Below, in pieces: positions 23,115-30,189 of a stretch of DNA of 64,000 bases (positions within the stretch are counted from its first letter, which is position 1; every line of letters starts with the position of its first letter). The stretch is taken from assembly GCF_024808875.1 (NCBI RefSeq), contig NZ_JANUCT010000005.1:124001-188000 (forward strand). Direction: 5' to 3'. The translations under genes were made by a program, and so were the position numbers. The notes under the pieces were generated by a model. The model was not told where the DNA came from. It searched no databases and worked only from the letters and a program-made list of their open reading frames with translations. The DNA is from Methylohalomonas lacus. Lineage in GTDB: Bacteria; Pseudomonadota; Gammaproteobacteria; Methylohalomonadales; Methylohalomonadaceae.

Positions 23115-23143
23115 TTGACGCTTACGCGGCCGGCGCGTATTAT
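23115..23143 (+). promoter_or_regulatory. Promoter of the tRNA-Pro/Arg/His/Lys cluster
   Basis: TTGACG at 23115-23120 and TATTAT at 23138-23143 with 17-bp spacing. A C-rich discriminator (CCCGCCCTCCCGCGC) follows, as in stringently controlled stable-RNA promoters. Confidence 0.75.
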
Positions 23144-23227: not shown

Positions 23228-23304
23228 CGGGGCATAGCGCAGGCTGGTAGCGCACCTGCTTTGGGAGCAGGGGGTCGGGGGTTCAAATCCCTCTGCCCCG
23301 ACCA
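23228..23304 (+). tRNA. tRNA-Pro (anticodon UGG)
   Basis: A 77-nt cloverleaf. The acceptor CGGGGCA pairs with TGCCCCG. The anticodon stem CCTGC/GCAGG encloses TTTGGGA, anticodon TGG. The T-loop is TTCAAAT and CCA is encoded. It is the first gene of a four-tRNA run. Confidence 0.97.
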
Positions 23305-23389
23305 GAAGTGAAGTAATTAAAGGCTGATAAGCCAGTAAGTTGAGTTTACGATATGCGCCTGTAGCTCATCCGGATAGAGCATCGGCCTT

Positions 23390-23689
23390 TAAGCGAGTGA
23401 CTGGTATGTCAGTTGCTCATTGCAGGAGCCCCTGCAGGGAAATTGAACCTGTCGGGTGGACTACACCGTAACGGGGAAACCTTAGCAGCCAGTCAAACAG
23501 GCTGGGCTGATGGCAATCCCGTGGAAACCTGCAACAATGAAGTACGGCGGGGTTCCGTAGAGACTATACGTGTAGCGCCTGAGATGGCGAAGAGATAGTC
23601 CAGACCACAAACTGACGCCGTAGGTGTCATCCCCGCGAAAGCGGGGATCCAGTCGGTATAGTCAGGCTGTGAAAACAGTAGTTGGTAAG
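23390..23689 (+). ncRNA. Group I self-splicing intron in tRNA-Arg(UCU), 300 nt
   Basis: The core elements occur in order. A 9-bp hairpin, GAGTGACTG paired with CAGTTGCTC, lies at the 5' end. The P-like GGGGAAACCTTAGC starts near 23474 and the Q-like GGCAATCCCGTGG near 23511. The R element GTAGAGACTATACG is at 23557-23570 and the S element GAAGAGATAGTCC at 23589-23601. P7 forms from GACTAT (23562-23567) and ATAGTC (23595-23600). The pattern follows the small bacterial tRNA introns of Azoarcus and cyanobacterial tRNA-Leu. No homing endonuclease is encoded. A strong GAAA-capped hairpin at 23629-23648 lies in the P9 region and carries a sequence typical of dispersed genomic repeats. Confidence 0.92.
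23629..23648. repeat. Dispersed palindrome inside the group I intron
   Basis: ATCCCCGC-GAAA-GCGGGGAT, flanked by TGTC and CCAGTC. The extended sequence matches from memory the widespread proteobacterial repeat whose antisense translation reads DWIPAFAGMT, and that translation is present on the minus strand here. The loop is a GNRA tetraloop, so it may serve as a P9-type hairpin. Confidence 0.65.
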
Positions 23690-23753
23690 CTAAGCCGAGG
23701 GTAGCAGGTTCGAGTCCTGCCAGGCGCACCAAATCAGGCAGTACAGATTTTAT

Positions 23754-23830
23754 GGTGGGAGTAGCTCAGCTGGTAGAGCTCCGGATTGTGGCTCCGGTGG
23801 TCGTGGGTTCAAGTCCCATCTCTCACCCCA
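23754..23830 (+). tRNA. tRNA-His (anticodon GUG)
   Basis: A 77-nt cloverleaf including the His-specific G-1 at 23754, which faces C73. The acceptor GTGGGAG pairs with CTCTCAC with one G-U pair. The anticodon loop TTGTGGC has anticodon GTG, and CCA is encoded. Confidence 0.97.
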
Positions 23831-23845
23831 AACTTGATGGCAACC

Positions 23846-23876
23846 AATGCAGGGCGTGAGCCCTGCATTGTTGTTT
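23846..23876 (+). terminator. Terminator-like hairpin after tRNA-His
   Basis: A perfect 10-bp stem AATGCAGGGC/GCCCTGCATT with a GTGA loop, followed by GTTGTTT. tRNA-Lys comes 50 bp later, so this may be partial termination or a processing hairpin. Confidence 0.6.
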
Positions 23877-25548: not shown

Positions 25549-26346
25549 TTAGAGGCGATTCAGGCCCCGGGCGGTCTCGATGGCACGGCGCATCTGGCCG
25601 TCCATGCCTGCACTGGCCTGACGATCTATACCCAGCTGCAGGCGCGTAACATTGCGTATCTGTTGTAAATTGCTGTTTAGCTGAACGGACTGGTGCAGCC
25701 CCTGGCGCGAGAGTATCTGCTGGTTGATACGCCCCTGTCCCGGCACATCAATGCTGACACCGAGGCCGCCATTGCCACTGCTGACCGATAATCTGGCACC
25801 GGACAGTGTGGTCAAGTTGGACATGCCATTGCCTGTATTGCCGGGCAGCGCATTGCCACGGCTGCGGCTGTCGATTTCAATAAAGAAATCATTGCTGGCG
25901 GAATTGTGGTCGCCGCCGGCCTGAATGGTTTGGACGACGCCGCTCGCATTTTCCGTGCCCTGATTCTGAACCTGGTTGTTGCCGAAATTCTGCTGTGACG
26001 GAGTGTTGCCGTCACCGTTTGCCGCGGTTATGTGTGGCTCGAACCTTACGTTCGGTACCTTGCCGCTCATGTCGGCATACATGATGGCGCCCGCCTGGAG
26101 CGACTCACCGGCTGCGGTGCGCCACTCGCTGGTCATCTGGATGCCAAAGTAAAGGATTTTATTGCCGTCAATAAAACGGCCCCGCATACCACTCAGTTCA
26201 CCGTCAGTCAGTTCGCGTGCATTGCTGAAAGCGGAAGTATCAGGCCAGGCTGCCTGGGCTGCCGGCGCTGTCGTTCCGACTGTTATGCACAGTAGAGCAC
26301 TGGCCTGAACGATAAACCAGTGACGCCTTACAAATCGAGTGTTCAT
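25549..26346 (-). CDS. Secreted Fap-locus protein at the fapE position
   Basis: A 265-residue secreted protein with a signal peptide (to about residue 32, AAQAAW). Next comes LTDGELSGMRGRFIDGNKILYFGIQM, then an Asn/Gln/Gly-rich middle (QQNFGNNQVQNQG) and a C-terminal helix-rich part (RRAIETARGLNRL). Its place between the fapD-like protease and the fapF-like barrel is that of fapE, but I cannot confirm the family by sequence. The LTDGELSGMRGRF element recurs as LNDDQLGQVRGLF in the first gene of the locus. It resembles leader motifs recognised by C39 peptidases, and a C39-type protein is encoded next door. GAGGGA precedes the ATG. Confidence 0.7.
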   Translation of the reverse strand: MNTRFVRRHWFIVQASALLCITVGTTAPAAQAAWPDTSAFSNARELTDGELSGMRGRFIDGNKILYFGIQMTSEWRTAAGESLQAGAIMYADMSGKVPNVRFEPHITAANGDGNTPSQQNFGNNQVQNQGTENASGVVQTIQAGGDHNSASNDFFIEIDSRSRGNALPGNTGNGMSNLTTLSGARLSVSSGNGGLGVSIDVPGQGRINQQILSRQGLHQSVQLNSNLQQIRNVTRLQLGIDRQASAGMDGQMRRAIETARGLNRL

Positions 26347-26379
26347 CTCTCTAGTCCCTCAAAAAGGCTATCGATATAA

Positions 26380-27108
26380 TCAAAATAAATCGGCATGTAT
26401 GAAGCCGAAATCCAGTAATCTATGCTTGGGCACCGGCGCAAACACGTCGGTTAGTTTGCGTGCCGTCAGTGGCTGCCGGGGCTTGAGCAAAACGGTATTT
26501 TCATTGAATCCCTCGCCAACTATGGCGAAAATGATGTTATTCCAAGAAGCGACAAATTCATCACGCTCCATGATGCGGTTGCCCAGTGCAGGGTCGCCGA
26601 CATAGACACGATCGCCACTGGTCTTTTTCATGATGACGAAATGCTTGTAGCCATTCAGGTCCAGTAGCACGATAACCGGGATGGATACATCATCGAGCGT
26701 TTCAGTTTCAACCTGGTAACCGCGGCCACGCAGCCCCAGTGATTCGACATAGTTCTTCAGGTCCAGCAGGGAAAAACCCCTGGCCTTGACAACTTCCGGG
26801 TCGGCGACATCCAGCATGCCGTCGAGCACATCAAGCTCGGTAATGCCTTCCTGGCCGTAGGCATACCTGAGGATGGTTGCGACGGATGCGGCACCACAGG
26901 AGAAATCGGTTTGCTGTTCAACGAGATTTTCGTAGCGACGTTCGCGGATGGATTGCACATTCTTGGTGATCATGGTGCCGGGTATGGCATTGCCGAACTT
27001 GATCCCGGCGGCCTGGCTTGTCTCTGGTATGCTGACAAGCAGGGTCGTAGCTAGCATCACTGCGCCAACCATGCCGCTGATAATATTCCTGTCATTTACT
27101 GACAACAT
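26380..27108 (-). CDS. fapD: FapD-like C39 family cysteine peptidase
   Basis: About 242 residues. After an N-terminal hydrophobic export segment (SGMVGAVMLATTLLV) comes a peptidase C39 domain. The catalytic Cys is in QQTDFSCGAASVATILRYAYG, the His in GYKHFVIMKK and the Asp in YVGDPALGNR. FapD proteases process or assist the export of Fap subunits. Unlike bacteriocin exporters there is no ABC transporter fused or adjacent. The ATG at 27108 gives a compact signal peptide; in-frame ATGs at 27159 and 27213 would extend it. It lies between the fapC-like and fapE-position genes, as in Pseudomonas. Confidence 0.85.
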   Translation of the reverse strand: MLSVNDRNIISGMVGAVMLATTLLVSIPETSQAAGIKFGNAIPGTMITKNVQSIRERRYENLVEQQTDFSCGAASVATILRYAYGQEGITELDVLDGMLDVADPEVVKARGFSLLDLKNYVESLGLRGRGYQVETETLDDVSIPVIVLLDLNGYKHFVIMKKTSGDRVYVGDPALGNRIMERDEFVASWNNIIFAIVGEGFNENTVLLKPRQPLTARKLTDVFAPVPKHRLLDFGFIHADLF

Positions 27109-27246
27109 GCGCTTCTGTCCATGGTCGTCGACTGCTTCCCTGCCAATGTACCGGCCCATCCCTGGAGAAAAATCCCGGTCCGCTTGTGGCGGACCGGGAA
27201 CTTGTATCAGCATTTATATATTATGCTGGTCTTTGTAATGGTGCTT

Positions 27247-28449
27247 TTATAATTCACCACCACCATTACCACCACCATTGCCACCGCCATTACCACCAGT
27301 CGCGGCTGCAATCGACAGCGAGTTGCGCTGCAGATTGTTGCTGCCGGCAGCGACGTTCACGCCGATGTTGCCGCTGGCACCGCGCAGAGCATTGCCACCG
27401 AAGGTAGCATTGTTCTGGTGATAGACGATGACGTCTTCAAAGGTCTTGCCATAACCCGAGGCGGCACCCTTGAGCACGATGATGCCGGCTTCCCTGAAGC
27501 CGAATTCACCACTTTCTTCACCAGCAAAGCGGCCATTTTCCTGATCGGCATCGAAGTCAAGGTGACCAACTTGCTGACAGTTTGAACAGGGATGATTCAG
27601 GGTGTCCGGGTCACTGGGGTTGTTGCTCATCCAGATTTCCGGATAGACGTTATTGGTCTGTTCCCATTCACCCGAATAGGTGCCACCACCACCACCGGCG
27701 TAGCCGCCGACCATGACCAGGTTTTCACGATAGACAAAGCCCTTCTCCAGCGTGACCACCTTGCCGGTATTATCGGTGTAGTTATCAAAGCTCTGCTGAA
27801 CGCCGGCTGTGGTCGCATCCGCCGAACCGCTGGCGGTATTAACCGAAGCTGCCAGTGAATTCTGCTGGGCATTGGCGACACCTGCGGCAATGTTCACACC
27901 GATATTGCCAGTGGCGTTTTGCAGGGCGTTGCCACCGAGCGTGGCGTTGTTGGTAGCGCCCTGGTTGTCGACCTTGTTGTTGGAAGCAGACTGGGCCGAG
28001 AACGCCGCTGACTGGGCAAACACGGTGGCCGCGTCAGAAGCGGACAGGGCCGCATCGTTGGCCTGCTTGTTGTCGTCACCAGCAGTAACGTTGACACCGA
28101 TGTTGCCAGAAGCGCCACGCAGGGCGTCGCCGTTCAAACGGGCATTGTTCTCGCTGAGCTTGTTGTCAACGTCGACATCGTCGGTCAGCTGCTTGCTGTC
28201 AACGGTGGCGCCGCTGTAGTTGCCCGGGTCGACTTCGGCGTCGATCTTGACGTCGATGTACTTGTCGGTATCGGCGTTATGCTCGAGGTCTACCTCGATA
28301 TCGTTCTCAAACTCGGAATCGATTTCGCTGTCGGTCTCGAAGTGGTTACCACCACCGTTCGGATAACCGCCGTTGCCTGCCAGCACGAGCGGCGAAGCTA
28401 CCAGGGCAGCAATCGCCAGCGCCAGCGGAGTCAATTTAAAGGTTTTCAT
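27247..28449 (-). CDS. fapC: FapC-like functional amyloid subunit
   Basis: A 400-residue secreted protein with a signal peptide (to about residue 24, LVLAGN). An acidic Asp/Glu-rich segment follows (38-100), then three imperfect amyloid repeats at about 101-135, 167-200 and 346-381, each built on NA-x-GxxAL-xxA-GNIGVNxxAG-xxxxQ-N. Linkers separate them; the second (about 145 residues) has a CxxC (CSNC, 288-291), a feature also known in Pseudomonas FapC. The C-terminus is Gly-rich (GGNGGGNGGG). Such repeats stack as the fibre core of biofilm amyloid. The start has a perfect AGGAGA site. The Gly-rich tail and acidic head are unusual and may affect secretion or assembly. Confidence 0.87.
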   Translation of the reverse strand: MKTFKLTPLALAIAALVASPLVLAGNGGYPNGGGNHFETDSEIDSEFENDIEVDLEHNADTDKYIDVKIDAEVDPGNYSGATVDSKQLTDDVDVDNKLSENNARLNGDALRGASGNIGVNVTAGDDNKQANDAALSASDAATVFAQSAAFSAQSASNNKVDNQGATNNATLGGNALQNATGNIGVNIAAGVANAQQNSLAASVNTASGSADATTAGVQQSFDNYTDNTGKVVTLEKGFVYRENLVMVGGYAGGGGGTYSGEWEQTNNVYPEIWMSNNPSDPDTLNHPCSNCQQVGHLDFDADQENGRFAGEESGEFGFREAGIIVLKGAASGYGKTFEDVIVYHQNNATFGGNALRGASGNIGVNVAAGSNNLQRNSLSIAAATGGNGGGNGGGNGGGEL

Positions 28450-28508
28450 GGTGTATCTCCTGACTTATTAGTTTGTGCTATATTATTACTGGCTATCCCA
28501 TCGCCCCG

Positions 28509-29198
28509 TTACGGCCCCATTTGGAGGCTGAAACTGTTGCGAGTGGCATTGCCTGTACCCGCTGACTGGTTGACCTGGATAATTCCCCGGGCACCACTGA
28601 ACGTCGAGCTCTCTATCTCGATTTGACGCTGTGGTGTCCCGGAATCCGGGTCGCCGGTCAGTATTTGCTGATTGGACAGTACCTGACCCAGACTCATGTC
28701 GGTCAGACTGCTGCCTTTTATGCCCAGAGCCATACCCATCGTATTGCTCTGTACATTCGTTTGCCCCGCCGCCTGGTTGACCGTGATCCATCCCACGGCA
28801 TTGCTGAAGGCCCTGTCGCCAATGCGTACAGATGCCTTGTCCGGCGCGAAGCCACTATTCAGTAAAGCCCGCTGCACTATAAGGTTGGTTATATGCGCGT
28901 ATTCACCCAGCGCCATGGTGCCGGCGTTGTTCTGCAGGTTGTTGTCCCCGGCCGCCATGTTGACGTTGATCGCCCCGGTCACGCCGCTGAGCGCGTTGCC
29001 ATTCAGAATGGTTCTGGCTGAATAAAACGAATTTGCGGGGGAGAGTTCCTGTGCCAGTGCGGGAGCCGCTGTTAGCAGACTGACGGCCAAGGCCGTTATC
29101 ATTTTTTGCAGACAGCCTGAGCTGGACCATGCAAGCCACTGGTTTGCTATTGATTGACTGGTGGTTGATTGCAGATTCATGGTTTTCTGTCTTGTCAT
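28509..29198 (-). CDS. fapB: FapB-like amyloid subunit (probable nucleator)
   Basis: A 229-residue secreted protein with an export signal ending TAAPALAQ. Three repeats of the Fap type follow: GNALSGVTGAINVNMAAGDN, DRAFSNAVGWITVNQAAGQT and STFSGARGIIQVNQSAGTGN. Each has the Gly-Ile-Asn-Val core followed by Ala-Gly and Asn/Gln. It precedes the larger fapC-like gene on the same strand by 59 bp, as fapB does in Pseudomonas, where FapB is the minor or nucleating component. The start at 29198 lies one base before the stop of the upstream gene. It has no clear Shine-Dalgarno, so translational coupling is likely; ATGs at 29180 and 29102 are alternatives. Confidence 0.8.
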   Translation of the reverse strand: MTRQKTMNLQSTTSQSIANQWLAWSSSGCLQKMITALAVSLLTAAPALAQELSPANSFYSARTILNGNALSGVTGAINVNMAAGDNNLQNNAGTMALGEYAHITNLIVQRALLNSGFAPDKASVRIGDRAFSNAVGWITVNQAAGQTNVQSNTMGMALGIKGSSLTDMSLGQVLSNQQILTGDPDSGTPQRQIEIESSTFSGARGIIQVNQSAGTGNATRNSFSLQMGP

Positions 29199-29199
29199 T

Positions 29200-29751
29200 T
29201 TATTGTTGGTTTATGGCGCCCAGCGACTGCTTGAGCGTATCCGAGAAGCCGGACATGACGCCGCCGATGCTGCCGCCCCTGCCGCTTTCTGCATTGAGGA
29301 TGCCCATGAGCCGACCGCTGCTGCTGTTTGCCTGGGAATGGCTGCCACCATTACGGTTTAGGTTATGGCCCTGTTCCATGCCGAGTGCCTGATGCAGCTG
29401 TCGGGCCGGCGCGGGTGTGCTGTGCACACCTGCTGCCTGGCTGTCCGACAGTGCAATTCCCATCATGCCATCCAGTTGATTATTGACCTGGTTGTTGACT
29501 CCGTTGCTGAGTTCGCCAGTACGACGCAGATTGATCTTGGTGGTGATCGGGCCATTGTCACGGTCAACCCGGTTCATGGGTGCCGGCTCGACTCGGCGTA
29601 TCACAACCACTTCACCGGGATTGACGCCGGGTCTGAGGTTGGGGGAGCTGTCCTGAGCTTGGAGCACAGGTGAGGCGGCGGCGAACAGCAGCATCAGAAA
29701 GATTGCCTGGGACAGAATGATTACTCTGTGTGTTTTGATGGTCATTGTCAT
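29200..29751 (-). CDS. Small secreted Fap-locus protein, fapA position
   Basis: A 183-residue protein with a signal peptide (MLLFAAASPVLQAQD) and an Asn/Gln/Ser/Gly-rich, low-complexity mature part. Landmarks are NPGEVVVIRRVEP, GVNNQVNNQLDGMMG and the C-terminal GVMSGFSDTLKQSLGAINQ. In Pseudomonas the gene before fapB is fapA, a small periplasmic chaperone that governs subunit composition. Position and composition suggest the same here, but sequence identity to FapA is not something I can verify. The ATG overlaps the stop of the preceding gene (ATGA) and the stop is one base before the fapB-like start, so it belongs to the operon. Confidence 0.7.
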   Translation of the reverse strand: MTMTIKTHRVIILSQAIFLMLLFAAASPVLQAQDSSPNLRPGVNPGEVVVIRRVEPAPMNRVDRDNGPITTKINLRRTGELSNGVNNQVNNQLDGMMGIALSDSQAAGVHSTPAPARQLHQALGMEQGHNLNRNGGSHSQANSSSGRLMGILNAESGRGGSIGGVMSGFSDTLKQSLGAINQQ

Positions 29752-30152
29752 TGGCCCATCTTGAGGCGGTTGTTCTGGCTGTTGTTATGACCATTGCTTT
29801 GCATGACGGAAGTACGATTGCCACTGGAGCTGGTTTCGTCCCAGAGAATGACGCCGGTTTCATTACCGTTACTCGCTTGTATCAGCATGGGTTCGGTAAA
29901 CAGACCGCGAACCTGGCCCAGCTGGTCGTCGTTTAAGGGCGTGTGGCCGCTGATATTTCCTGTCGTCGTGACACTAAAGCCGGCGTAGGCGTAATGTACG
30001 CCCGCAGGAGCCGGTCTATCTGCCAATTGTTCAGCAGCAACCGGCGAGGTGGCACTAAGCAGAGCGAATGAGAGCGCCATAAGCAGCGATAAGGGGCGCT
30101 GCCAGGGGGTATGGCAACTAACGCGTGCTTGATTGTTTTGGAGTCTATTCAC
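29748..30152 (-). CDS. First gene of the Fap-like operon, small secreted protein of unknown function
   Basis: A 134-residue protein with a signal peptide (SLLMALSFALLSATSPVAAE) and a short mature part. It contains LNDDQLGQVRGLFTEPMLIQ, similar to the LTDGELSGMRGRFIDG element of the fapE-position protein, and an Asn-rich tail (SNGHNNSQNNRLKMG). I do not recognise a family. The GTG at 30152 is preferred because AGGAAG lies six bases before it; the frame could also open at the GTG at 30167. It is the promoter-proximal gene behind a sigma-54 promoter and overlaps the next gene by ATGA. It has no equivalent in the standard fapABCDEF set that I know of. Confidence 0.7.
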   Translation of the reverse strand: MNRLQNNQARVSCHTPWQRPLSLLMALSFALLSATSPVAAEQLADRPAPAGVHYAYAGFSVTTTGNISGHTPLNDDQLGQVRGLFTEPMLIQASNGNETGVILWDETSSSGNRTSVMQSNGHNNSQNNRLKMGQ

Positions 30153-30189
30153 CGTCCGCTTCCTCACCGGTTGCTGATGTGAATAGACA

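Follow-up and report, generated by a model that had tools for sequence, protein, structure and literature searches.

Our analysis showed that the tRNA-Arg(UCU) gene of Methylohalomonas lacus is interrupted by a 300-nt insert, which lies between U34 and C35, inside the anticodon. The best full explanation, to which we give a probability of about 95%, is that the tRNA-Arg(UCU) gene is functional and has an ORF-less group I intron at this point, and that this intron is spliced out. Coordinates refer to the window, that is, the whole 64-kb stretch of DNA that was analysed.

The interrupted tRNA-Arg(UCU) gene

The two exons (Table 1) join to a 77-nt tRNA-Arg(UCU) in which 7 of 7 acceptor pairs form. 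When introns were allowed, ARAGORN called tRNA-Arg(tct) with 77 bases and an intron of 300 ('gcctt-Intron-ctaag'), and the exons thus agree independently. Without the intron option, ARAGORN missed the gene at 23355–23731. A first-pass annotation of this DNA had described the exons, the 300-nt insert, the split between U34 and C35 and the tRNA-Arg(UCU) host, and had predicted that most tRNA finders would miss the gene or call it a fragment. The gene structure was borne out, and tRNA finders run in default mode do miss the gene. The U that it placed at the end of the 5′ exon and the G at the end of the insert are both seen in the sequence.

Elsewhere in the window, a run of adjacent reading frames was observed on the minus strand at 25549–30167. 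Several of them contain repeated 'GNxLxGxxGxIxVNxAAG..N' motifs; the run also encodes a C39-peptidase-like protein, at 26380–27213.

Table 1. Features of the M. lacus tRNA-Arg(UCU) locus and its neighbours, in window coordinates.
Feature	Position	Strand	Evidence
Putative promoter of sigma-70-like type, TTGACG-17-TATTAT, ahead of the tRNA cluster	23115–23143	+	match to consensus
tRNA-Pro(UGG), upstream neighbour	23228–23304	+	
5′ exon of tRNA-Arg(UCU), positions 1–34, last base U34	23355–23389	+	exon joining, ARAGORN
CUU of the 5′ exon, P1 partner of guide GAG; U23389 in the splice-site G-U wobble	23387–23389	+	sequence; guide conservation
Group I intron, 300 nt, no notable ORF in any frame	23390–23689	+	alignment, covariation, ARAGORN, covariance model
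Peripheral 9-bp hairpin in P1 loop, GAGUGACUG/CAGUUGCUC	23395–23418	+	fold and relatives
AG, proposed P10 partner of 3′-exon C35-U36	23424–23425	+	AG in 70/93 introns
Internal guide sequence GAG (P1)	23426–23428	+	conservation in relatives
P2, 23431–23438 with 23448–23455	23431–23455	+	8/8 pairs with two-sided changes across relatives
P3 5′ strand, partner 23570–23575	23461–23466	+	two-sided changes in 5/6 pairs
P4 23471–23476/23517–23522; P5 23480–23481/23512–23513; P5a 23486–23488/23507–23509	23471–23522	+	alignment and covariation
P6/P6a, 23523–23525/23554–23556; 23528–23529/23550–23551	23523–23556	+	alignment and covariation
P7 5′ strand (R element), partner 23596–23600	23562–23566	+	99.2% of cells paired; first-pair G-C invariant, 26/26
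P3 3′ strand	23570–23575	+	covariation
P8 (CGCC/GGCG)	23576–23589	+	100% of cells paired; two-sided changes in 2/4 pairs
P7 3′ strand (S element)	23596–23600	+	covariation
Enlarged P9, closing helix CUGAC/GUCAG	23612–23665	+	fold
Palindrome AUCCCCGCGAAAGCGGGGAU, 20 bp, within P9; dispersed-repeat type, numerous in other genomes	23629–23648	+	
Terminal hairpin CUGUGAAAACAG ahead of the 3′ splice site	23667–23678	+	fold and relatives
Omega G, terminal G of the intron	23689	+	sequence
3′ exon of tRNA-Arg(UCU), C35 to encoded CCA	23690–23731	+	exon joining, ARAGORN
tRNA-His(GUG), downstream neighbour	23755–23830	+	
Putative terminator-like hairpin 3′ of tRNA-His	23845–23870	+	match to consensus

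Fold of the insert and its recognition by covariance models

Rfam model RF00028, which had been proposed as a check in the first-pass annotation, gave no match to the M. lacus Arg intron at any of three settings, even at E<10 on short stretches, and therefore the structure itself was tested. We aligned 26 introns that occupy this tRNA position and could place P2, P3, P4, P5, P5a, P6, P7 and P8 (42 pairs). Pairing holds in 97.3% of the 1,092 base-pair cells, and 24 of the 42 pairs show two-sided changes. The covariation score was 0.391; shuffles gave 0.131, and a control in which the partners were slid by 1–3 columns gave about 0.05. Both pseudoknot helices, P3 and P7, covary. Folded alone, the insert was 4.2 standard deviations more stable than its shuffles. 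P2 of the M. lacus intron has a single mismatch (U23433/C23453). P7, earlier described as a 6-bp helix, consists of five canonical pairs (GACUA/UAGUC), since the outer A/C does not pair. An extension of P3 by GUA/UAC (23468–23470 with 23567–23569) was counted in the covariation test; because it showed no covariation and up to five exceptions, it was treated as J3/4 and J7/3 and omitted from the covariance model described below.

Judged by anatomy, the compact core, the short P5, the lack of P5abc and P7.1/P7.2 and the tRNA host would be compatible with the IC3 type, but J3/4 (CGUA in M. lacus, mostly UGUA), J7/3 (UAC) and the P6 sequence are all unlike those of the Leu-type introns seen. The group I assignment made in the first-pass annotation is supported by P2–P8 with the P3/P7 pseudoknot, by covariation and by homology, and the insert is a genuine and almost certainly active group I intron.

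The guide GGAG[C/T] was found near the 5′ end of all 93 introns scanned, and the two bases before GAG were AG in 70 of them, UG in 16, GG in 6 and CG in 1. GAG at 23395 was considered as the guide and rejected, as the relatives show a conserved GGAGCC at 23425. U34 and the terminal G in the relatives give no independent support, because these relatives were found by patterns and filters that already demanded U34 before the intron and a G at its end. The hairpin in the P1 loop is also common among the relatives, and P9 is far shorter in the nearest of them than in M. lacus. The palindrome within P9 is absent from all the other introns in the set of 93. Our search of the M. lacus genome located one further near-copy (C17:18908–18927), while two intron-free relatives (G054 and G022) each have a dozen or more copies of this type of repeat. 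It seems that a small dispersed repeat landed in a tolerant P9 loop, or that the intron arrived from a repeat-rich genome.

A covariance model, R1, was built from 16 relatives with the M. lacus Arg intron left out. Its score for this intron was 146.9 bits, with E 6e-34 over 133 kb; RF00028-recognised introns (L132, L200, L214, L075 and L081) scored 44–84 bits. At its gathering threshold, RF00028 recognised tRNA-Arg introns from Enterovibrio (L132), Aeromonas (L200) and one viral contig (L214), but matched none of 10 close relatives of the M. lacus intron. We therefore regard its miss as a blind spot of the model; the subfamily to which the M. lacus Arg intron belongs is beyond its reach. The chances seem about even that this is an unrecognised group I subfamily, unseen by Rfam and dedicated to the tRNA-Arg(UCU) anticodon, across several bacterial phyla and large phages. 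If so, genomes that carry it wrongly appear to lack tRNA-Arg(UCU). Since RF00028 and default tRNA searches both miss the subfamily, some of the 'missing' bacterial tRNA-Arg(UCU) genes are likely to be intron-bearing.

Introns at the tRNA-Arg site in bacteria and phages

In 84,980 species genomes we looked for the 5′ half of a tRNA-Arg in which CUU is followed by anything but C. At least 70 species loci join across an insert of 204–782 nt to a tRNA that ARAGORN calls tRNA-Arg(tct), and 22 viral contigs do likewise. Titles among the matches listed include Gammaproteobacteria, Bacteroidota, Bacilli, Hydrogenimonas, Omnitrophota and Pyrinomonadaceae. When the class was sampled evenly, a match turned up in 14 of 370 genomes, and all the places checked proved to be real introns. 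The first-pass annotation had considered a UCU host uncommon, which these counts at the exact site do not support. The M. lacus Arg intron joins a known kind, and the same site is occupied in many bacteria and some phages. Similar introns were not found in plasmid records.

A core-sequence search that was blind to the host tRNA found 20 places in 18 of 377 genomes of the same class. The exons join to tRNA-Arg(UCU) at 18 of these places, including L356, which ARAGORN calls tRNA-Ser, yet its 3′ exon is that of tRNA-Arg(UCU). The other two, L358 and L359, come from one genus (genomes G388 and G316); their cores are of the same subfamily and their 3′ exons are truncated or missing, as if the gene were decaying. 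In genome G222 the intron-bearing tRNA-Arg(UCU) was observed on two contigs (L303 and L308), and both copies have the same intron. A related group I intron in tRNA-Arg(UCU) of genome G032 (L072, 283–606) lies two bases further on, between U36 and A37.

Viral contigs with group I introns in tRNA-Arg(UCU) include L214, L217, L236, L241, L249, L262, L286 and others; some of these genes lie inside large tRNA arrays and one is beside a tilS-like gene. A 484-kb uncultured phage (LR756508.1, L339) has two interrupted tRNA-like genes, at 1360–1640 and from about 1770, with introns that belong to the same family and that model R1 scores at 111 and 97 bits; the first gene resembles tRNA-Asn(GUU) split after U33. 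According to a 2014 review, the phage introns then known were all within protein-coding genes (PMC3984707).

Interrupted tRNA-Arg-TCT genes have already been reported in giant sulfur bacteria, in passages of a paper which state, citing MacGregor et al. 2013a, that interrupted tRNAs are present in Ca. Thiomargarita nelsonii Bud S10 and Ca. Maribeggiatoa BOGUAY and were missed by annotation (PMC4853749). The authors of tRNAscan-SE 2.0 omitted such genes from their bacterial training set, and they traced the apparent lack of fMet or Ile2 genes in 36 genomes to group I introns (PMC8450103).

AGA decoding, origin and predicted splicing of the intron

The M. lacus assembly comprises 2.76 Mb in 38 contigs, is 98.97% complete and is not closed. 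The search for a second tRNA-Arg(UCU), also suggested in the first-pass annotation, found none among the 41 whole tRNAs of this assembly, in which the other tRNA-Arg genes are (CCU), (CCG) and (ACG). BLAST of the assembly with the whole locus returned only the locus itself and a tRNA-Met fragment. In the window, 37 AGA codons are spread over 20 of the 44 large ORFs. As the assembly has no other UCU gene, AGA decoding and growth probably depend on splicing, although a second UCU gene is possible in the unassembled part. An essential decoding function would then rest on an RNA catalyst, because the anticodon itself is split.

It is very improbable that the tRNA is dead, an inactivated intron having broken the gene and AGA being read otherwise. 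Such decay would be in keeping with the repeat-like palindrome in P9, the missing RF00028 match and the truncated copies in the two relatives of one genus, but the exons, the core helices, both guide pairings and the terminal G are all intact in M. lacus, and the relatives vary under constraint. Besides, AGA codons are in use with no other UCU gene seen, and by standard rules tRNA-Arg(CCU) is unable to read them.

The tRNA-Leu(UAA) gene of M. lacus is interrupted too (G000:C4:145891–146340; L081, roughly 380–840): U34 is followed by a group I intron some 358 nt long, and no intact tRNA-Leu(UAA) is listed among the whole tRNAs. RF00028 gives this intron 41 bits, which is under the cut-off. UU precedes its GAG, matching the AA 3′ of its splice site. 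We built a tree from 88 trimmed introns; its deep nodes are weakly supported. In it, the M. lacus Arg intron groups with gammaproteobacterial tRNA-Arg introns. A different clade (0.99 support) holds the M. lacus Leu intron; its other members are further Leu introns, viral introns and the introns that Enterovibrio and Aeromonas have at the Arg site. Since these last sit in the Leu clade, the tRNA-Arg site has received introns at least twice, from two lineages or more. Aligned over their full length with MAFFT, the Arg and Leu introns gave no usable result. A Leu-intron pattern matched 48 genomes of the class, mostly by chance, and three introns were confirmed; because the pattern is noisy, we claim no frequency for Leu introns.

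Slighter still is the chance that the Arg intron was recently copied from the organism's own tRNA-Leu(UAA) intron, by reverse splicing into a second host that likewise presents CUU ahead of the splice site. The Leu intron is present in M. lacus, both guides are GAG, and the grouping of the Enterovibrio and Aeromonas introns suggests that such moves occur; the tree contradicts a copy in M. lacus, where the Arg intron lies deep within the tRNA-Arg introns. As the two introns fall in separate clades, the Arg intron is, on this tree, not a fresh copy of the Leu intron. The presence of two tRNA introns with separate origins and matching guides in one genome, and of a twice-colonised Arg site, offers a way to study host choice.

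Interrupted tRNA genes of archaea and eukaryotes are spliced by proteins (PMC4033280), but splicing of the tRNA-endonuclease type, or another kind of element such as a group II intron or an insertion sequence, can be dismissed here in view of the 34/35 position, the 300-nt length, the complete covarying group I core, and the lack of any group II match, transposase or other ORF in the insert.

As a group I intron, the insert would act as follows. The pre-tRNA is probably part of a tRNA-Pro-Arg-His transcript. Its intron would fold into P1–P9 with the P3/P7 pseudoknot, and the guide GAG would position the exon CUU in P1. A guanosine bound at P7 would attack 3′ of U34, and the freed 3′ OH of U34 would attack past the terminal G, with AG holding C35-U36 in P10. 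Ligation of the exons would restore the UCU anticodon.

Longer relatives carry a PD-(D/E)XK endonuclease ORF in the P6 loop (PF11645, E 1e-38 and 6e-35), and viral versions carry a gene for an HNH enzyme (PF13392). No endonuclease gene was found in the M. lacus Arg intron. The M. lacus Arg intron belongs to a site-specific lineage that probably spread among tRNA-Arg(UCU) genes, at least partly by homing; the endonuclease gene would have been lost later.

Comparison with known systems

The pair of interrupted tRNA genes in M. lacus is also found together in one genome in Thiomargarita nelsonii Bud S10 and Ca. Maribeggiatoa BOGUAY, and the introns are apparently of the same class; the passages concerned give no insertion position within the anticodon, and the paper says that its authors did not establish secondary structure or intron type (PMC4853749).

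The tRNA-Leu(UAA) introns of cyanobacteria, plastids, other bacteria and M. lacus itself resemble the Arg intron in their site after U34, their GAG guide and their homologous core, and model R1 finds the Leu intron copies of M. lacus and of genome G045. They differ in that UU before the guide serves AA, whereas in the Arg intron AG serves CU, and also in P6 sequence, in J3/4 and J7/3, in their separate clade and in a sub-threshold RF00028 score.

The introns of Azoarcus tRNA-Ile(CAU) and Agrobacterium tRNA-Arg(CCU) are, like the M. lacus Arg intron, small, ORF-less and proteobacterial, with a U at the exon end; they are of the IC3 type, to which the M. lacus intron may also belong. Compared from description, they sit in other tRNAs, after U36 and not U34. 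The PF11645 endonucleases of the long relatives of the M. lacus Arg intron are presumably of the I-Ssp6803I type. The I-Ssp6803I homing intron resides in tRNA-fMet of Synechocystis; introns of that type thus differ from the M. lacus Arg intron in their host tRNA and in carrying an endonuclease gene.
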